Notes under the pieces: model-generated | The model's database searches: none | Seen by the model: only the letters and a program-made list of their open reading frames with translations | Told to the model about the DNA's origin: nothing | Program-made: the position numbers and the translations under genes | Shown here: positions 6,514 through 18,112 of the stretch, piece after piece | Layout of the letters: each line of letters opens with the position of its first letter | How positions within the stretch are numbered: position 1 is the stretch's first letter | Assembly: GCF_002803515.1 (NCBI RefSeq) | Contig: NZ_PHQX01000001.1 | Location: 2,170,001-2,234,000, forward strand | DNA length: 64,000 nt | Source: Stenotrophomonas lactitubi | Lineage (GTDB): Bacteria > Pseudomonadota > Gammaproteobacteria > Xanthomonadales > Xanthomonadaceae | Direction of reading: 5' to 3'

Positions 6514-9500
6514 ATGCGCGTCATGCGTGGCCACATCTTCCCTCTCCCGCGTCGCCTGCCGGCGCTGCTGTCGTGCCTGCTGTTGTGGATCGCCCTGCCC
6601 GTGCTCGCTGCACAGCACCCAGTGATCAGCGACGGCATGCCCAGCTACCAGCACACCGCGTGGCGGGTGGGCCAAGGGGCGCCCGGCGATATCTGGGACA
6701 TCGCCCAGGATCGTGAGGGCATGCTGTGGCTGGCGACCGGCTCGGGCCTGTACCGCTTCGACGGTCGCCGTTTCGAGCGCCAGGCGGCACCGGCTGGCAC
6801 CCGATTCCCCTCCACCAACATGGTCACGCTCGGCCTCGATGGCGAGGGCGACGGCCTGTGGATCGGTTATTTCCAGGCCGGCATCAGCCAGTTCTCGCCT
6901 CAGCGGCTGCGCAGTTTCGGGCGAGCGCAGGGCGTGCCGGTGGGCGTGGTCCCGCGCTTCGCGCATGACCACAACGGACGCCTGTGGGCGGCAGTCAATG
7001 GTGGCCTGCGCTGGTTCGACGGGCAACGCTGGCAGGCTCCAGCCGCCGATGAAGGCGTGCCACGACGTCGTGTGCAATGGCTGCTGCAGGACAGCCACGG
7101 CACCTTCTGGGTGCTGGCCGACCTGCACATCTGGAAGCGCGCGGCGGGAAAGACCGCATTTGAAAACACCGGCATCGCCGTCTCGCAGATGGCAACCCTG
7201 GTGGAAAGCCCGCAGGGCGAGATCTGGCTGGCCGACCGCATCCGCGGCACTTCACCACTGGCCAACGCGCAGGGGCTGCTGCCCCCCAGCGAGCGCGAAG
7301 CGCGGCGCATGCCGGACCTGGTAGCCGCGCGGCTGCAGTTCACCGCCGATGGCGCACTCTGGGCCACGATGAGCCCGCACGGTGGCGTCGCCCGCGTCAC
7401 CTTCGATGGCCAGCAGGCCGTGCGCATCGAGCGCTTCGACACACCGCAGGGCCTCACCGCGACCTCGGCGGTGCCGGTCATCGCTGACCGCGAAGGCAAC
7501 CTCTGGGTCGGCACCAACCTCGGCCTCAACCGCTTCCGCGCCCGCAGCGTGCAGACGCTGGCCGTCGGCCCCAGCGATCCTTACCGCTCGCTGGTACGCG
7601 GCAGCGATGGCCGCGTGTACGGCTATGGCGAAGACCTCAAGCTGTTCGACCTGCAGCGCCCGCTGCTGGCCGGTAGCGCGGTGCAGTTGCAGGCCGCCGC
7701 GCAGCGGGCGCCCACGCCGGTCTGGCAGTTCGACTGGATCAACCTCGCGCGCACGGTGGGCGGCCACACCACGCGCATTCCCTTGCCCGCACCGTTCACC
7801 GGCCAGCCCCTGCATGCCCTGCTGTTTGCCGACGATGACCAGGCCTGGGTCTGCGCCGGTGAGCAGGCGGTGCTGCAGTACGCGGATGACCGCTGGCGAC
7901 GCGAGACGCGGCTGCCCGAGCAGGCCTGCTCGTCGCTGGCGCGTGCCAGCGACGACGCGCTGCTGCTTGGCTATTCCGACGGCACGCTGCGCCGTCTGGA
8001 TACCGCATCGATCGCCACGTTCGGCGCGGCACAGGGGCTGTCAGTCGGCCCGATAACCGCGCTGCTGCAACATGACGATCTACTGCTGGTTGCCGGTGAG
8101 GCGGGCCTGGCCGCGCGCCTCGGCAACGGCCGCTTCCTGCCCGTACGCACCAACACCACCGGCATCCTCGAAGGCATTACCGGCATGGTCGCCGATGCCC
8201 AAGGGCGACTCTGGCTCAACGGCAGCCGCGGCCTGGTGCGGCTCGAAGTCGCTACCCTGCGCAGCGCACTGCGCGACGGCCAGCCCGTTGCCCCGCGCCT
8301 GTTCGATGCCGTCGATGGCATGCCCGGCATTGCCCTGCAAAGCGGCCCCATCCCGACCGCCGTACTGGCCGCCGACGGCCTGCTGTGGCTGGCCACCAAC
8401 CAGGGCCTGGCGTGGCTGGATACCCTGCAGCCGCACATCAACAGCATGGCCCCCGGGGTGCGCATCGGCGACGTGCTGTATGGCACCACCCAGACGCCGT
8501 TGCAGGAGGGCTTGCGCCTGCCGGCCGGAACCTCCCAGCTGCAGATCGACTATGTCGCGCTGTCGCTGGCGCGGCCCGAGCGCAACCGCTATCGCTACCG
8601 CCTGTCCGGCGTGGACGACGGCTGGCAGGACGCCGGTGGCAGCACGCGCGCTTACTACACCAATCTGGCGCCGGGTCATTACCATTTCGAGGTGGAGGCT
8701 GCCAACGAGGACGGCATCTGGAGCCGCACGCCAGCCATCCGCAACTTCCGGATCGCGCCCACGTTCCTGCAGAGCGTCTGGTTCAAGTTGCTGTGCGTGG
8801 TGCTGGTGCTGGCCGTGCTGATGTTGGCCATCCGCATCCGCAGCGGCCAGCTCGCGATGCTGTTCCGCGCGCGCCTGCAGGAGCGCAACGGCGAACGCGA
8901 ACGCATCGCACGCGACCTGCACGACACCCTGCTGCAGGGCAGCCAGGGGCTCATCCTGCGGCTGCACGCCATCAGCCAGTCCTCGCATACACCGGAGCCG
9001 GTGCGTACCCAGCTGGAGGCGGCGATGCAGTTGGCCGAACGGAATCTTGCCGAAGGCCGGGAACGGGTCAACGCACTCCGTGACGGACCGTTTGCCGGTC
9101 GCGACCTCGCCTCGGCGCTGGCCGATGTGCACGCCGAATACGCGGGCCAAGGCACCAACCCGCTGCGCCTGACCGTGGAAGGCAGCCCCCCGCCCCTGCA
9201 GACCGATGCCGCCGAAGAAGTGTTCCTGATCGGACGCGAGGCCATCCGCAACGCGTTGCGGCATGCGCAGGCCAGTGCCATCGAAGTGGAGCTGTCCTAC
9301 GGCACGCGCTGCTTCCTGCTGCACGTACGCGATGATGGTGTCGGCATTGCCGACGAGGATGCCGGCCGCGGTCATTGGGGCATGCAGGGCATGCGCGAGC
9401 GCGCACATCGGCTGGGCGCGGAACTGCAGTTGTGGACCCGACCGGGCCTGGGCACCGAAGTGGCGCTGTCCGTGCCGGCCCGTCGCCTGTATCACCGCCG

Positions 9501-9546
9501 TCCATCGCGCTGGCGCTGGCCCTGGAGCAGACCCACCCATGACTGA
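6514..9546 (+). CDS. Sensor histidine kinase with beta-propeller and Y_Y_Y input domains
   Basis: The 1010-residue membrane kinase has a signal/anchor helix (LPALLSCLLLWIALPVLA). A large periplasmic region follows with repeated propeller blades (WLATGSGLYRFDG, LWVGTNLGLNRF, LWLATNQGLAWLD), then a Y_Y_Y domain at about residues 667-745. One membrane helix lies near 754-775, then a HisKA_3 dimerisation domain with phospho-acceptor H803 in ERIARDLHDTLLQG, and an HATPase domain with the N-box EAIRNALRHA. This layout is the NarX/DesK-like class with a carbohydrate- or polymer-sensing style ectodomain. ATG 6523 is an alternative start. The stop overlaps the response regulator start by eight bases. 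Confidence 0.92.
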   Translation: MRVMRGHIFPLPRRLPALLSCLLLWIALPVLAAQHPVISDGMPSYQHTAWRVGQGAPGDIWDIAQDREGMLWLATGSGLYRFDGRRFERQAAPAGTRFPSTNMVTLGLDGEGDGLWIGYFQAGISQFSPQRLRSFGRAQGVPVGVVPRFAHDHNGRLWAAVNGGLRWFDGQRWQAPAADEGVPRRRVQWLLQDSHGTFWVLADLHIWKRAAGKTAFENTGIAVSQMATLVESPQGEIWLADRIRGTSPLANAQGLLPPSEREARRMPDLVAARLQFTADGALWATMSPHGGVARVTFDGQQAVRIERFDTPQGLTATSAVPVIADREGNLWVGTNLGLNRFRARSVQTLAVGPSDPYRSLVRGSDGRVYGYGEDLKLFDLQRPLLAGSAVQLQAAAQRAPTPVWQFDWINLARTVGGHTTRIPLPAPFTGQPLHALLFADDDQAWVCAGEQAVLQYADDRWRRETRLPEQACSSLARASDDALLLGYSDGTLRRLDTASIATFGAAQGLSVGPITALLQHDDLLLVAGEAGLAARLGNGRFLPVRTNTTGILEGITGMVADAQGRLWLNGSRGLVRLEVATLRSALRDGQPVAPRLFDAVDGMPGIALQSGPIPTAVLAADGLLWLATNQGLAWLDTLQPHINSMAPGVRIGDVLYGTTQTPLQEGLRLPAGTSQLQIDYVALSLARPERNRYRYRLSGVDDGWQDAGGSTRAYYTNLAPGHYHFEVEAANEDGIWSRTPAIRNFRIAPTFLQSVWFKLLCVVLVLAVLMLAIRIRSGQLAMLFRARLQERNGERERIARDLHDTLLQGSQGLILRLHAISQSSHTPEPVRTQLEAAMQLAERNLAEGRERVNALRDGPFAGRDLASALADVHAEYAGQGTNPLRLTVEGSPPPLQTDAAEEVFLIGREAIRNALRHAQASAIEVELSYGTRCFLLHVRDDGVGIADEDAGRGHWGMQGMRERAHRLGAELQLWTRPGLGTEVALSVPARRLYHRRPSRWRWPWSRPTHD

Positions 9547-10192
9547 ATCCCTTCCTCCCATCGGCGTACTGGTGGTCGATGACCATCCCCTGCTGCGCGA
9601 TGGCTTGGCGGCATTGCTGAGCACGCACACGGACCTGCGCCTGCTCGGCGAAGCCGCCGATGGCGAAGAGGCGCTTGCCCGCTACCAGCAGCTGCAACCG
9701 GATGTGGTGCTGATGGACCTGCAGATGCCACGCATGGACGGCGTGGAAGCGATCGTGCGGATCCGCGCGCTTGATCCACGTGCACGCATCATCGTGCTGA
9801 CGACCTATCGTGGCGATGTGCGTGCGGTGCGTGCACTGCAGGCTGGGGCCAGCGCCTACCTGCTGAAGGACACGCTGCGCCACGAACTGGTGGACACCAT
9901 CCGCATGGTGGCCAGCGGCCGCCGCGCACCGATACCGGCAGAGGTGGCGGCCAGCATCGCCGCGCATGTCGTGGAAGACCGGTTGTCGCCGCGCGAAACC
10001 GAAGTACTGCGCCACGTGGCCGGCGGCCTGTCGAACAAGCGCATCGGCGAACGCATGCTGATTTCCGAGCAGACGGTGAAGGCGCACATGAAGAGCCTGA
10101 TGGACAAGCTGGGCGTCGGCGACCGCACCCACGCGGTAACCCAGGCGCTGCGCCGCGGAATCATCAGCCTGGATGACACCGGTCAGGATTGA
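9539..10192 (+). CDS. NarL/FixJ-family response regulator
   Basis: This 217-residue cytoplasmic partner of the preceding kinase has a receiver domain with the acidic pair in VLVVDDHP, phospho-acceptor D60 in VVLMDLQMP, and the conserved K in YLLKDTLR. A LuxR-type helix-turn-helix follows (SPRETEVLRHVAGGLSNKRIGERMLISEQTVKAHM). The start ATG overlaps the kinase stop, so the two are coupled. Targets are not visible. The neighbouring DoxX-like gene is a possible one because it is divergent from this operon. Confidence 0.95.
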   Translation: MTESLPPIGVLVVDDHPLLRDGLAALLSTHTDLRLLGEAADGEEALARYQQLQPDVVLMDLQMPRMDGVEAIVRIRALDPRARIIVLTTYRGDVRAVRALQAGASAYLLKDTLRHELVDTIRMVASGRRAPIPAEVAASIAAHVVEDRLSPRETEVLRHVAGGLSNKRIGERMLISEQTVKAHMKSLMDKLGVGDRTHAVTQALRRGIISLDDTGQD

Positions 10193-10271
10193 GGGGGGTT
10201 CGGCCGGGCTGCGCCCGGCACCCGCCGAATCAACGTCAACGTCAACGTCAAAGGCGGGCTACCCGTGGGAT

Positions 10272-10373
10272 GGCGGGGTGGGTCCGGTTGCGGGGGACGC
10301 CGTAAACCCATCCTTGGGGGCTTGGCCGCGGCATCCATGCCGCGGACACCCCCGCAACCGGACCCACCCCGCC
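10272..10373 (+). repeat. Long hairpin A1 (25-bp perfect stem, 52-nt structured loop)
   Basis: Bases 10272-10296 are the exact reverse complement of 10349-10373. The 52-nt loop contains a second perfect hairpin, CCGCGGCAT-CC-ATGCCGCGG (10326-10345), and a small one, CCCA-TCCT-TGGG. The loop begins ACGCCG and ends CGGACA, as in hairpin B1 read on the other strand. The stem sequence GGTGGGTCCGG also recurs in hairpin A2 at the second locus. Confidence 0.9.
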
Positions 10374-10559
10374 TTCGACAGATCTCCGCGATCTGCCCGG
10401 ATGACATGACCTGCTCTTGGTAGGTGTCGACCTTGGTCGACACGTAGATCCACGCCATGCGTGGGTGCTCTTCGTTCAATTGTCGAAATATTAGATTTCG
10501 ATGGAGATTCATCCAGCACGGGATGGGTCCATCAGACACCAGAAAACTGTCGAAGGTGG
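10374..10559. repeat. Core of composite element, locus 1, with SMAG-type REP
   Basis: The 186-bp core between the two long hairpins holds the palindrome GTGTCGACCTTGGTCGACAC, a GTAG-footed SMAG-type repeat with arms ATCCACGC/GCGTGG starting at 10445, and the inverted repeat TCGAAAT-ATTAG-ATTTCGA. It begins with CTTCGA and ends with TCGAAG, so even its edges are inverted. The same order of parts occurs in the locus 2 core. Confidence 0.85.
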
Positions 10560-10651
10560 GGCGGTGTCGGATTGCGGGGTGTCCGCGCCATGGATGGCGC
10601 GGCCAAGCCTACAGGGACGTACTTGCGGCGTCCCCGCAATCCGACACCGCC
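10560..10651 (-). repeat. Long hairpin B1 (20-bp perfect stem, 52-nt structured loop)
   Basis: The arms are GGCGGTGTCGGATTGCGGGG (10560-10579) and its exact reverse complement (10632-10651). Read on the minus strand, the 52-nt loop aligns with A1 along its whole length and contains the mini-hairpin CCGCGCCAT-CC-ATGGCGCGG. Compared with A1, the inner stem has a G-to-C change balanced by a C-to-G change on the other arm, which indicates selection for pairing. Confidence 0.9.
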
Positions 10652-10740
10652 ACGCCCTCCCACGGAATGCACGCACGCTGTTGCTGTTGCTTGCGCAGTG
10701 GCCTCTGCAGGTGCAGGGCGCAGCCCTGCCGAACACCCCC

Positions 10741-11937
10741 TCAACGCAGGCGGATCAGCAGGCTGCCACCAGCACAGATCGTCGCCAGCCACGCCACGCC
10801 CTGCCATCCCCACTGCGCCAACGCCAGGCTGCCCAATGCACCGCCGCCGGCCATGCCGATGAACATGCCGGTGAACAGCAACGCGTTGAGGCGACTGCGT
10901 GCCGGCGGCACTAGGCCGTAGACCAGGGTCTGGTGCGCGACCAGCGCCGACTGGAAACCGAAATCGAACAGCAACGCGCTGACCACCAGCAACGGCAGCA
11001 ACGCAGCGGCCGGCAGCCAGGACTCGGCCAGCAACAGGGCAAAGCCTGCCAGCGCGACGGCGATCGCCAACCGCGCTACCGCAGGGCTGCCCAAGCGATC
11101 GGCGAAGCGGCCAGCAACGGGCGCAGCCAATGCACCCGCAGCACCGGCAATACCGAACGCACCCGCGGCGGCGCTGCCCAGACCCAGCCGTGCATGCAGC
11201 ATCAGCGCCAGCGTCGACCAGAACGCACTGAAGCCCACCGCCAGCAGCGACTGGCTGGCCACGGCGCGACGCAACTGCGGCTGCTCGCGCCACAGTGCCA
11301 GCAACGAGCCCAGCAACGCGGGGTAGCGCAGCGTGCTGGCCGCTGCGAAGTGCGGCAGTGCCCGTGCCATCACCGCGCCCATCGCCAGCACCGAGAGTGC
11401 AGCAAGGCCGAACTGCACGCGCCAGCCCCAGGCTTCGGCCACCACGCCGCTGACCACGCGCGACAGCAGGATGCCCAGCAGCAGGCCGGTCATTACCCTG
11501 CCCACCACCTGCCCACGCTGCGCATCCGGCGCCAGCACCGCAGCGGCCGGCACGATGTCCTGCGCCAGCGTGGCCATCAGCCCGACCAGCAGGCTGGCAA
11601 CAAGCAGCCCAGGCAACTGGCCGGCCAAGGCCGCCGCACCCAGGGCCAACGCCAACAGCACCGACTTCAGCAGGATCAGGTTGCGCCGGTCGAAGCGGTC
11701 GCCCAGCGGAGCCAGCAGCAGGATGCCCAGTGCGTAGCCCAGCTGGGTCAGGGTCGGCACCAGGCCCACGACGCGCTCGCCGGCACCAAGATCCTGGGCG
11801 ATCAGGCCCAACATCGGCTGGCTGTAGTAGAGCGAGGCCACCGAGAAGCCCGCGCCGGCGGCCATGGCCAGCACCAATGATGGGGCGGGCGCAGCGCTGG
11901 GCGCAGTGGTGATGGTTGAGAGCGAGGGAGTGGACAT
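10741..11937 (-). CDS. MFS transporter (sugar/drug efflux type)
   Basis: The 398-residue inner-membrane transporter has about twelve hydrophobic helices. The N-terminal half holds LASLYYSQPMLGLIAQDLG-like sequence (SVASLYYSQPMLGLIA) and the loop GDRFDRRNLILLK between helices 2 and 3, both typical of the MFS_1 group. The gene is divergent from a LysR regulator with 93 bases between the starts, a common arrangement in which the regulator controls the exporter. Substrate unknown. Confidence 0.88.
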   Translation of the reverse strand: MSTPSLSTITTAPSAAPAPSLVLAMAAGAGFSVASLYYSQPMLGLIAQDLGAGERVVGLVPTLTQLGYALGILLLAPLGDRFDRRNLILLKSVLLALALGAAALAGQLPGLLVASLLVGLMATLAQDIVPAAAVLAPDAQRGQVVGRVMTGLLLGILLSRVVSGVVAEAWGWRVQFGLAALSVLAMGAVMARALPHFAAASTLRYPALLGSLLALWREQPQLRRAVASQSLLAVGFSAFWSTLALMLHARLGLGSAAAGAFGIAGAAGALAAPVAGRFADRLGSPAVARLAIAVALAGFALLLAESWLPAAALLPLLVVSALLFDFGFQSALVAHQTLVYGLVPPARSRLNALLFTGMFIGMAGGGALGSLALAQWGWQGVAWLATICAGGSLLIRLR

Positions 11938-15286: not shown

Positions 15287-16168
15287 ATGCAAGACAGTGC
15301 CAAATCGAATAGAACAGTGTTCGAACTGGACCTGCTGCGGGCTTTGGTGATGGTCGCCGACTGCGGCAGCTTCACCACGGCTGCCACCCGCCTGCACTCG
15401 ACCCAGTCCACGGTCAGCCAGAAGATCCGCCGCCTGGAGGAGCTCGCCGGTCACCGCCTGCTCGAGCGCGGCCACCGCGACGTGCATCCCACCGATGCCG
15501 GGCACACCCTGCTGGGCTATGCCCGGCGCATGCTCGACCTGAACGAGGAGCTGGCACAGGCCTTGGCCGGCGCCACCGTGGAGACCGCGGTGCGCATCGG
15601 TGTGCCGGAGGACTTCGTCAACGCTCAGACCACGCGCATGCTCGCTGCCTTCAGCCGCCGCCACCCGCAGGTCAAACTGGAAATCAGCAGCGGCCTCAGC
15701 CGTGATCTGGCCCACGGTTTCGATCATGGCGAGCTGGACCTGGTGCTGGTCAAGCAGCGCCGCAACACCCGCCAGGCCGTGCATTGCCGGCGCGAACCGA
15801 TGCACTGGATCGACAGTCTGCGCAGCAGCAGCCTGCAGCAGGACCCGCTGCCACTGGTCACCTTCCCGCCACGCGGGCTGTACCGCGACGAGATGATCCA
15901 GGCCGTCGAAGCGCTGGGCCTGCGCTGGCGCATCGCGTTCACCAGTTCCTCGTTGAGCGGCATCCAGGGTGCGGTGGCGGACGGCATCGGCATCAGCCTG
16001 CTGCCACGTCGCGCGGTCAACCGCGAACACCGCATCATCGATGGCGAGCGCGACCTGCCGGTGGTCGACAACTACGAGATCGGCCTGCTGCATCGCGCCG
16101 ATGCCGATGACGCGGTGCGTGCACTGGCCGCTGAACTCTGGCGGCAGGTGCAACGCGATCCGGAATAG
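15287..16168 (+). CDS. LysR-family transcriptional regulator
   Basis: This 293-residue LysR protein has a typical N-terminal helix-turn-helix (ALVMVADCGSFTTAATRLHSTQSTVSQKIRRLEELAG) and an effector domain beginning TAVRIGVPEDFVN. It is divergent from the ankyrin lipoprotein and amidohydrolase genes, with 91 bases between the starts, and may regulate them. It is followed by the second nested palindromic element rather than a simple terminator. Confidence 0.92.
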   Translation: MQDSAKSNRTVFELDLLRALVMVADCGSFTTAATRLHSTQSTVSQKIRRLEELAGHRLLERGHRDVHPTDAGHTLLGYARRMLDLNEELAQALAGATVETAVRIGVPEDFVNAQTTRMLAAFSRRHPQVKLEISSGLSRDLAHGFDHGELDLVLVKQRRNTRQAVHCRREPMHWIDSLRSSSLQQDPLPLVTFPPRGLYRDEMIQAVEALGLRWRIAFTSSSLSGIQGAVADGIGISLLPRRAVNREHRIIDGERDLPVVDNYEIGLLHRADADDAVRALAAELWRQVQRDPE

Positions 16169-16270
16169 TCGGCAGGGCTACGCCCTGCACCCATTGGTAG
16201 TGCCGGCCGCTGGCCGGCAACCTCAACAGCCGAAGCAACATCAACAGCAACAGCAGGCTTCCTGAGGGAT

Positions 16271-16372
16271 GGCGGGGTGGGTCCGGTGGCAGGGGCCGCT
16301 GCAAGTACGTCCATGTAAGCTCGGTCGCCGCATCCATGCGGCTCACGCCCCTGCCACCGGACCCACCCCGCC
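16271..16372 (+). repeat. Long hairpin A2 (25-bp perfect stem, 52-nt structured loop)
   Basis: Bases 16271-16295 are the exact reverse complement of 16348-16372. The stem shares GGCGGGGTGGGTCCGGT with A1 and then differs with compensating changes on the other arm. The 52-nt loop contains GCCGCAT-CC-ATGCGGC (16327-16342) and the smaller TACGT-CC-ATGTA hairpin. The GCAAGTACGTCC segment of this loop matches B1 rather than A1. Confidence 0.9.
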
Positions 16373-16559
16373 TTCGATAGATTCCCGCGATCTGTGGGAA
16401 TGGCATGGCCTACTCTTGGTGGGTGTCGACCTTGGTCGACACGTAGATCCACGCCATGCGTGGATGCTCTTCGACCAGATATCGAAATATTCGATTTCGA
16501 TGGAGATTCATCCACGCATGGCGTGGATGTGCCAGATGACGGGAAGCTGTCGAAGGTGG
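16373..16559. repeat. Core of composite element, locus 2, with SMAG-type REPs
   Basis: The 187-bp core contains GTGTCGACCTTGGTCGACAC, a GTAG-footed REP starting at 16443, the inverted repeat ATCGAAAT-ATTCG-ATTTCGAT (16481-16501), and a second copy of the REP in opposite orientation (ATCCACGC...GCGTGGAT at 16510-16528). Locus 1 has degenerated at this second position. Confidence 0.85.
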
Positions 16560-16651
16560 GGCGGTGTCGGATTGCGGGGTGTCAGCCGCATGGATGCGGC
16601 TGCCAAGCCCCCATGGATGGGTTTACGGCGTCCCCGCAATCCGACACCGCC
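16560..16651 (-). repeat. Long hairpin B2 (20-bp perfect stem, 52-nt structured loop)
   Basis: The stem is identical to B1: GGCGGTGTCGGATTGCGGGG pairs with its reverse complement at 16632-16651. The 52-nt loop read on the minus strand contains CCCAT-CC-ATGGG and CAGCCGCAT-CC-ATGCGGCTG. Its GTAAACCCATCC segment matches A1 at the other locus, so stem type and loop type are not inherited together. Confidence 0.9.
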
Positions 16652-16675
16652 CCGCCTCCCACGGGATGCACGCCT

Positions 16676-16710
<35 letters not shown>

Positions 16711-16767
16711 TCTGAGGTTGCCGGCCAGCGGCCGGCACTACAGCGGGTGCCGGGCGCAGCCCGGCCG

Positions 16768-17928
16768 CTACAGCCAGCGCCCGGCGACCACCACGCGTCG
16801 CTCGCCCGGCACCCCGGCTACCGCCGCCGGGCCATGGTCGGCACGCACCGCCACGAAGGTGGCCGGAAGATCGTCTGCAATGCCGTACTGCGGCAACCCG
16901 ATCACCTCCGCCGCATGGGCGGTGACCATGTCCAACGCCAGCATCAGGTCCGCATCGGTGTAGAAGCCCGATCGATAGCCCAGCAGCATCGCCCGCTGCA
17001 GCAGGTCGCCATTGCCGTAGGGCCACCAGCAGTCGCGGATGTTGTCGTTGCCGGCAAACACGCGTACACCCGCGTCGTGCAGTGCGCGCAACGGCGGGAA
17101 CGGATGGTCGCCCGGTGCGTTGCTCATGATCGCTACGCCTGCGGCAGCCAACGCCTCACCCACCTGCAGCGCCCGTGCCAATGGCACCTCGCCCAGCGCA
17201 TAAGCGTGACTGACCGCCACCCTGCCCTGCAGGCCCGCCGCGCGCGTGCGCGCCGCGATCCGTAGCAACTGCGCCAACCCGGTCTCGCCCGGCTCGTGCA
17301 GGTGGATGTCCAGGCGCACGCCATAGCGCTCGGCCAGCCCGAACAACAACGCAAGCTGGCCGTCGGCATCCCCGTCCAGCGTGCTCGGGTCGATGCCACC
17401 CAGTACTTCCACTCCTGCAGCAATCGCCTGTTCCAGCACCGCCGCCGTACCCGGGCACGACATCACCCCCGCCTGCGGGAACGCCACCAGCTGGATGCGC
17501 ATGATGTCGGCACAGCGCAGCGCCGCCTCGCGCACGGCCTGCAGATGCTGCAGGCCGGTACTGCCATCGATGTCGACGTGGCAACGCATCGCCACCGTAC
17601 CGAATCCGCTGCACTGGCGGATCAGCGCCTCGGCACGGTCCGCCATCGGTGCAGCGGCGGCAATCGCGGCCTTCTCCACCGCCAGGCGTTCGCGCAGGCT
17701 GTTCACTGGCTGATGCGGATGCCAGCGGTCGCCGACGAAGCTCTTGTCCAGATGGATATGGCCGTCGACCAGTCCCGGCAGAACAGTAAAGCCGGTCAGG
17801 TCGACGCTTTCGGCCTCCTCCGGTGCGGCATCGTCGCTGTTGATGCCGACGAAACGGCCATCACGGACATGGAAATGCAGTGGGGTGCCGTCGCGATCGA
17901 CGCCACCATGGACGAACTGCAGAGTCAT
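16768..17928 (-). CDS. Cytosine-deaminase-like amidohydrolase
   Basis: The 386-residue cytoplasmic enzyme has the cytosine deaminase/CodA-like signature GLVDGHIHLDKSF (H57, H59). It also has the acidic strand CHVDIDG, the HLHEPGE loop, the SHAY metal ligand and GNDNIRDCWWPYGNGD near the active site. Family members deaminate or dechlorinate N-heterocycles, and the actual substrate is uncertain. The start is the ATG preceded by GGGAGA; the frame continues upstream without good support. Its 3' end meets the nested palindromes. Confidence 0.85.
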   Translation of the reverse strand: MTLQFVHGGVDRDGTPLHFHVRDGRFVGINSDDAAPEEAESVDLTGFTVLPGLVDGHIHLDKSFVGDRWHPHQPVNSLRERLAVEKAAIAAAAPMADRAEALIRQCSGFGTVAMRCHVDIDGSTGLQHLQAVREAALRCADIMRIQLVAFPQAGVMSCPGTAAVLEQAIAAGVEVLGGIDPSTLDGDADGQLALLFGLAERYGVRLDIHLHEPGETGLAQLLRIAARTRAAGLQGRVAVSHAYALGEVPLARALQVGEALAAAGVAIMSNAPGDHPFPPLRALHDAGVRVFAGNDNIRDCWWPYGNGDLLQRAMLLGYRSGFYTDADLMLALDMVTAHAAEVIGLPQYGIADDLPATFVAVRADHGPAAVAGVPGERRVVVAGRWL

Positions 17929-18112
17929 CTGGATCTCCCGGAAAGCCAATACTGGCGCCATCCTGCCCGTCACCGCTGCCATCGGCCAACGAAATATCCG
18001 CATGCCATGCATTCACCGGCACGATGAATCCCGCCCGCGACCCTGCGCCGCAGGGACGCCGGATGCACGCCTGAACGGGTAACATGGGCGCCTGTTTCCG
18101 CTGTGATGCCGC

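Follow-up and report, generated by a model that had tools for sequence, protein, structure and literature searches.

The window, a 64,000-nt stretch of the Stenotrophomonas lactitubi genome, contains two composites of about 385 bp (10272-10656 and 16271-16656), each located in a gap between convergent genes and built of two opposed hairpins around a palindrome-bearing core. On the evidence of sequence and predicted structure, we favour with moderate confidence the reading that the composite is a paired RsmA-binding element which works at the 3' ends of genes regardless of strand and whose copies would act collectively as a sponge. The two copies and their neighbours are made up as follows.

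9263-10192, plus strand: left neighbour of copy 1, a response-regulator/LuxR-type ORF with an uncertain start; its stop codon lies 79 nt before A1
10230-10252, plus strand: left CAAC-rich short-repeat tract, outside A1 (by eye; family statistics)
10272-10373, minus strand: hairpin A1, a 25-bp outer stem around two sub-hairpins, with the GGA loops on the minus strand
10309-10339, minus strand: two-loop RsmA-type block of A1, CATGGATG ... CAAGGATG (pattern match)
10374-10554, no strand: core of copy 1, between the hairpins, with REP-like palindromes
10444-10466, plus strand: GTAG-headed (SMAG-type) palindrome in the core of copy 1 (SMAG as defined in PMC2613905)
10555-10656, plus strand: hairpin B1, inverted relative to A1, with the GGA loops on the plus strand and a stem type unlike that of A1
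10589-10619, plus strand: two-loop RsmA-type block of B1, CATGGATG ... CAGGGACG (pattern match)
10677-10694, plus strand: right GTTG-rich tract, outside B1, the inverse of the left tract (by eye; family statistics)
10741-11937, minus strand: right neighbour of copy 1, a convergent MFS transporter gene
15287-16168, plus strand: left neighbour of copy 2, a LysR-type regulator
16271-16372, minus strand: hairpin A2, with the GGA loops on the minus strand
16308-16338, minus strand: two-loop RsmA-type block of A2, CATGGATG ... CATGGACG (pattern match)
16373-16554, no strand: core of copy 2, with two inverted palindromes at 16447-16466 (GTAG-headed) and 16509-16528
16555-16656, plus strand: hairpin B2, with the GGA loops on the plus strand and a stem type unlike that of A2
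16589-16619, plus strand: two-loop RsmA-type block of B2, CATGGATG ... CATGGATG (pattern match)
16768-18012, minus strand: right neighbour of copy 2, a convergent amidohydrolase gene

The preliminary description of this DNA had proposed two opposed long hairpins in both copies, and these were found as described, A1 and B1 folding far below the energies of shuffled sequences. A1 (10272-10373) formed a 25-bp stem at -86 kcal/mol (z -8.0) and B1 (10560-10651) folded at -67.7 kcal/mol (z -8.1); for neither was any of 200 shuffles as good. The full hairpins given by the covariance model were 10272-10373(-), 10555-10656(+), 16271-16372(-) and 16555-16656(+), where the sign marks the GGA strand. The proposed alignment of the A and B hairpins, with one of them read on the other strand, was confirmed, and the predicted palindrome of the core proved to be of the GTAG/SMAG type. 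The statement that the unit is present twice holds within the window; genome-wide, the family is much larger and dispersed.

To count the family, we searched the whole genome of the strain (4.87 Mb, 6 contigs). A 401-bp query gave 117 match places among the best 40 of 368 candidates scored; these are not copies, since every copy yields several through cross-matching of A and B. A covariance model (R1) built from 46 hairpins of this genome gave at least 149 matches (best 150 candidates scored). When 97 loci were rescanned with R1, full hairpins scored at least 73 bits and opposite strands below 57 bits, and 161 distinct hairpins were obtained, forming 61 pairs (gap below 600 bp) and 39 singles; all hairpin copy numbers given here are lower bounds. 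The singles include L068 and L087, where damaged mates exist, and two hairpins of L083 that lie 877 bp apart; the mate in L144 is interrupted. Two poor hits, a 52-nt fragment and a 125-nt interrupted copy, were dropped before loops were counted, and an interrupted 139-nt hit was kept among the 161 and left out of the loop counts (n = 160). The motif CATGGATG-N7-9-RAG-N3-5-CANGGAYG had 175 exact matches in the genome, and the reversed pattern had none.

The possibility that the two window copies come from a recent local duplication and that the unit occurs nowhere else did not hold. Among the matches listed, 12 others are closer to copy 1 than copy 2 is; the 16-kb copy, with 82% identity to the 10-kb copy, takes rank 14 when the query itself is included, and the copies outranking it lie on another contig and far away. 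A search of 50,697 phage and 72,556 plasmid records, a collection from which records near to this genome may be missing, yielded nothing, and a phage or plasmid origin was also rejected.

All hairpins share one layout when read on one strand: a 25-bp outer stem, a first sub-hairpin with the loop CATGGATG and a second with the loop CANGGAYG. CGGCG is conserved ahead of the 3' arm. Loop 1 reads CATGGATG in 157 of 160 hairpins, CAAGGATG in two and CATGAATG in one, a conservation that is partly imposed, because the training hairpins of R1 were picked by CATGGATG in loop 1; that of loop 2 is not. The GGA is kept in 159/160 first loops and in 160/160 second loops, and the two GGA start 23 nt apart in 157 of 158 hairpins. 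Loop 2 fits CANGGAYG in 158/160, with G, T, A or C at N and C or T at Y. Its closing pairs covary (UA/CG and AU/CG), and the closing pair is C-G in 124 of 125 distinct hairpins.

These loops resemble the type bound by CsrA/RsmA. The consensus of these proteins is RUACARGGAUGU, with a six-nt ANGGAN loop closed by an AC/GU stem (PMC7652899), and CANGGAYG has been described in RsmV of Pseudomonas (PMC9308961). Loop 2 fits such a site, as an ANGGA loop closed by C-G, and from this motif RsmA is a likely ligand of the hairpins. A single canonical RsmA of 67 aa is encoded in the genome (E 2.4e-26 to a CsrA of solved structure).

The outer-stem pairs show strong covariation. In an alignment from this genome (alignment A2, 43 distinct rows), 17 of the 25 outer pairs were changed on both sides, and 97% of all cells paired versus 37-46% in slid controls. 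In 16 hairpins of other genera, whose loops were imposed by the search pattern and whose rows are related sequences, so that the events are dependent, 26 of 28 outer pairs were changed on both sides and 97% of all cells paired. The covariation score was reached by none of 500 shuffles in either alignment.

What is G-U in the fold of one strand becomes an A-C mismatch in the fold of its complement, so imperfect pairs can reveal which strand folds as RNA. We counted 125 distinct hairpins among the 134 of exactly 102 nt, out of the 161; most of them came from the covariance-model search, in which G-U pairs earn credit. On the GGA strand of their outer stem, G-U occurred 75 times and A-C 11 times, and 17 of the 20 outer positions that differed favoured G-U (3 favoured A-C). 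The second sub-hairpin gave 112 G-U and 30 A-C. The first was reversed, with one G-U and nine A-C, eight of the latter at its weak outermost pair. A second sample, from other genera, was chosen by loops only, with the loops imposed by the search pattern and both mismatch kinds penalised alike; 29 of its 30 hairpins were kept, one falling under the stem score, and the outer stem showed 37 G-U versus 4 A-C. In both counts the rows are related sequences and the events dependent. Hits of a further model, R2, gave 26 G-U and no A-C, and are not clean evidence since that model also credits G-U. The two separate samples agree on the outer-stem G-U excess. The GGA strand is thus probably the functional RNA, because outer-stem changes there favour G-U over A-C, and there is good support for its forming a structure at the RNA level.

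This asymmetry bears on the idea that the composite is a DNA-level structure, such as a cruciform or a nucleoid-protein or gyrase site of the BIME kind. The nested palindromes and the REP core agree with it, and so does the absence of identical stems within pairs (see below), which would be expected if palindromes are purged, as described for REP heterodimers (PMC3733652). A strand asymmetry in outer-stem wobble pairs is not accounted for by this idea, nor is the agreement of the two loops with a consensus for RNA-protein binding, and we regard the idea as very unlikely.

The hairpins are paired by a strict rule. All 61 pairs were ordered minus then plus, so that the GGA strands point outward. 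The hairpins fell into stem types with 55, 23, 23, 16 and 12 members and smaller ones, and no pair of the 61 combined two hairpins of equal stem type (arm similarity of at least 0.85), versus 8.4 expected; the minimum over 5000 re-pairing trials was 1. Blunter measures differed little: the mean arm similarity was 0.596 within pairs and 0.621 after re-pairing (8% of re-pairings were as low), and the longest shared run was 17.2 nt versus 18.6 nt. The rule is therefore an avoidance of near-identical mates and not a general dissimilarity. REP heterodimers have been explained by the purging of long palindromes (PMC3733652). By analogy, such purging fits the hairpin pairs too, with the added benefit that each RNA hairpin would fold on itself.

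The position of the pairs was related to gene ends, using a purpose-built codon-score gene caller and not a curated annotation. Of the gaps holding the 61 pairs, 33 were codirectional, 22 convergent and 6 divergent, and the background gaps of at least 60 nt in the same loci and the window (n = 214) comprised 124, 23 and 67, respectively. The distance to the gene 3' end was 31-148 nt in 74 of 77 cases, with a median of 86. Singles in codirectional gaps showed no strand bias: nine had the GGA strand in sense and nine in antisense orientation. Composites are shortened in some relatives (L195, L369, L372 and L382), so singles may be what is left of former pairs, in which case the 9:9 ratio would be accounted for.

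The location just after stop codons, the enrichment in convergent gaps and the very stable stems would also suit a bidirectional 3'-end hairpin that terminates transcription or shields mRNA from exonucleases, the GGA loops being incidental. An intrinsic terminator, that is, a stem followed by a T run, was found at none of the four window hairpins, and the sole such site lies in the core palindrome of copy 1. This explanation also leaves aside two conserved GGA loops at a fixed spacing that recur in other genera. We therefore consider it unlikely.

The cores between the hairpins are 114-506 bp long (median 176, 61 pairs). A simple pattern found a SMAG-type palindrome in 36 of the 61, and it is in the core that the GTAG feature of REP/BIME elements was found. 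At least two CAAC per 75 nt were present in 41/61 left flanks and 32/61 right flanks, compared with 5.5% of random 75-mers (n = 4000).

Orthologous sites in relatives were either occupied or empty. At the copy 1 site, 21 loci were measurable: eight had at least two hairpins (in one of them the second is partial), three had one and ten had none. At the copy 2 site, hairpins were present in 5 of 26 measurable loci, our own genome included, and absent from 21; three of the hairpin-free loci had only 35-115 bp between the genes. Stem types at the copy 2 site differed between species, each hairpin being complementary to itself (L179, L181, L182). One empty site, L381, which is orthologous to window positions 10193-10740, is a 40-bp palindrome with 17-bp arms by eye. 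It fits, again by eye, either the state before insertion, with an 8-bp repeat, or the product of a deletion between AGCCCTGC repeats. Across the orthologous sites, no target duplication was found beyond what short-repeat deletion explains, and no act of transposition was seen. Movement of the composite is plausible from these comparisons. The suggestion of a non-autonomous mobile unit is thus partly supported, by the dispersed copies and by the occupied and empty sites between related species.

In its stronger form, this suggestion makes the composite a REP/MITE-like unit spread by RAYT-type transposases, with hairpins that serve DNA recognition and have no role with RsmA. The dispersal and site polymorphism described above, the SMAG-type palindromes in the cores and five Y1_Tnp matches in the genome speak for it. 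The one-strand excess of G-U over A-C in the outer stem is unexpected for a DNA-level signal, however, and between genera the outer stems have unrelated sequences although the two-loop layout is found again. No target duplication was established, the 40-bp site of L381 also being explained by AGCCCTGC deletion. We find this form improbable, slightly more so than the 3'-end hairpin.

Several side observations were made at these sites. The palindrome of L381 resembles a bidirectional terminator, and its halves flank the element in occupied relatives. At the copy 2 site (window 16169-16767), many relatives have a small ORF, mostly beginning with MSDE, in place of the composite (by eye; L184-L188, L190, L192-L194, L196-L200 and L203-L205, with a shortened ORF in L201). 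Another orthologous site, L368:796-1615, holds three hairpins, two of them on one strand. The Y1_Tnp (RAYT-type) matches lie at G000:C1 near 497225, 451371, 3504677, 4168244 and 3361642 (L389-L392), and such transposases are possible movers of the REP core.

Outside this strain, 48 of 61 genomes of the genus matched R1 and 13 were without a match (E<=1e-6, strict filters, best 66 candidates per genome), from which the system appears dispensable. In scans in which the loops were imposed by the search pattern, the two-loop pattern was found in 31 of 149 genomes and 14 of 54 genera of the family, where a control pattern gave 3 matches, all in one genome, and in 21 of 369 genomes of the class. The second model, R2, built from hairpins of other genera, gave 67-121 matches in each of six family genomes of four other genera. 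Around 30 loci, R2 had 37 distinct hits; all 31 hits of 108 nt fit CATGGATG and CANGGAYG, and two of the six of other length (in L352 and L358) are without the GGA of loop 2. The seven pairs near R2 hits in which both members exceeded 60 bits were all minus then plus; one locus set had been picked partly for visible pairs, so no orientation test was drawn from it. In L351 an extra plus-strand hairpin lies directly ahead of the pair. At L262:4984-5149 (Xanthomonas euroxanthea), two motif matches are ordered plus then minus, an exception to the outward rule among the matches listed. G450, from another family of the same class, shows an expansion to 57 copies of the two-loop motif, with ten listed sites alike in sequence.

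Among known systems, the CsrB, RsmX, RsmY and RsmZ sponges are dedicated sRNA genes. They likewise carry several GGA loops per RNA, whereas the hairpins here have two loops each and are spread over about 100 loci. The nearest named RNA to the hairpin is TwoAYGGAY (Rfam RF01731), which likewise has two GGA-loop sub-hairpins inside a long outer stem and shares the Rfam clan number CL00106 with rsmX. It is listed for gamma-Proteobacteria and Clostridiales (PMC2864571) and has been proposed, without experiment, to bind CsrA (PMC4333381). Against its gathering threshold of 43 bits, the window hairpins were not listed at E<=10, and the best of 10 loci from our genome reached 40.4 bits. One of eight other-genus loci reached 42.1 bits, none of 14 further loci appeared at E<=0.1, and one of 18 named loci, a Glaciecola, passed with 43.9 bits. 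The layout is present, with AYGGAY in 157/160 first loops and in 65/160 second loops, the second loop here being ANGGAY with GGA kept in all 160. High copy number, head-to-head pairs, a REP core and 3'-end placement are absent from the excerpted descriptions of TwoAYGGAY.

The core is of the same palindrome type as the SMAG/GTAG REPs, for which heterodimers are known (PMC2613905, PMC3733652). SMAGs are about 23 bp long, and the excerpted descriptions in these two papers do not include flanking 102-nt hairpins with two GGA loops. RsmU of Xanthomonas is also a GGA-bearing RsmA-binding RNA at an mRNA 3' end; according to the excerpted report it is a 3'-UTR-derived, RsmA-sequestering sRNA from a single locus, limited to Xanthomonas and not a dispersed palindromic family (PMC7694677). 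Ysr224 (RF02770) matched the window hairpins at 36.1 bits (E 1.4e-6), far under its 70-bit threshold and on the opposite (TCC) strand. No Rfam family had a gathering-level match in the window, and the matches to microRNA families, with scores well short of threshold, were attributed to chance resemblance between long stems and those models. In the titles and abstract openings listed from the open-access literature the composite is not named, so the question whether it is already a named family has a divided answer: the composite as a whole carries no name there, and its hairpin is close to TwoAYGGAY.

We propose the following mechanism. Each hairpin would be a TwoAYGGAY/CsrA-binding RNA module, in which an outer stem of 25-30 bp holds two sub-hairpins and their ANGGAY loops, 23 nt apart, could be clamped by one RsmA dimer. 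Two modules face away from each other, each with its GGA strand on the outer side, and most such pairs follow closely after a gene. With this arrangement, transcription from either side would yield one RsmA-binding hairpin, after the TCC side of its mate. The difference between the stems of a pair would make each hairpin fold internally instead of onto its mate, and would keep the DNA from forming a long perfect palindrome. Locally, RsmA may be placed at mRNA 3' ends, where it could alter mRNA stability or the processing that releases 3'-UTR sRNAs. Acting together, the more than 100 modules may serve as an RsmA sponge. The preliminary description had also spoken of a structured regulatory element. 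The structure stands, with its covarying stems, conserved GGA loops, strand-specific G-U pairs of the outer stem and 3'-end location; a regulatory role is our proposal.

Some results do not agree with this RsmA-binding reading. Singles are split 9:9, the wobble of the first sub-hairpin is reversed, and the second has its 30 A-C beside the G-U majority. SL1 has a long, G+C-rich stem, unlike most SELEX ligands, which mostly have at most 4 contiguous pairs (PMC7652899). RsmU with all four GGA motifs changed did not lose RsmA binding or function (PMC7694677). The absence of the window hairpins and of 14 other-genus loci from the TwoAYGGAY listings, the small differences in the blunter pair measures, the GGA missing from loop 2 in 2 of 37 R2 hits and the 13 genus genomes with no R1 match point in the same direction.

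The copy number and loops suggest a genome-wide sponge or tagging system. Its most specific version can be offered only tentatively: a distributed RsmA sponge in Stenotrophomonas and several related genera, with at least 175 hairpins, mirror-paired or single, and about 350 GGA loops, in which total transcription through many loci at the 3' ends of ordinary genes, and not a dedicated GacA-driven sRNA, would set the level of free RsmA, and in which the pair would spread and be kept because it works from either side. If the hairpins do bind RsmA, what looks like intergenic repeat DNA would contain hundreds of sites for this regulator, and copy number would be a heritable dial on a global regulator. 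A large repeat family that exists alongside the SMAG repeats would then gain a function, and the CsrA proposal for TwoAYGGAY could be put directly to experiment in a host that can be cultured.

A separate palindromic unit of about 80 bp was seen by eye at the tip of the loop of sub-hairpin 1 in several copies (the second hairpin of L068, L088:3001-3139, L144 with L015, and L180), in our genome and in the relative G021. Hairpin tips appear to be its target. A further insert was seen by eye within the second loop of L180.
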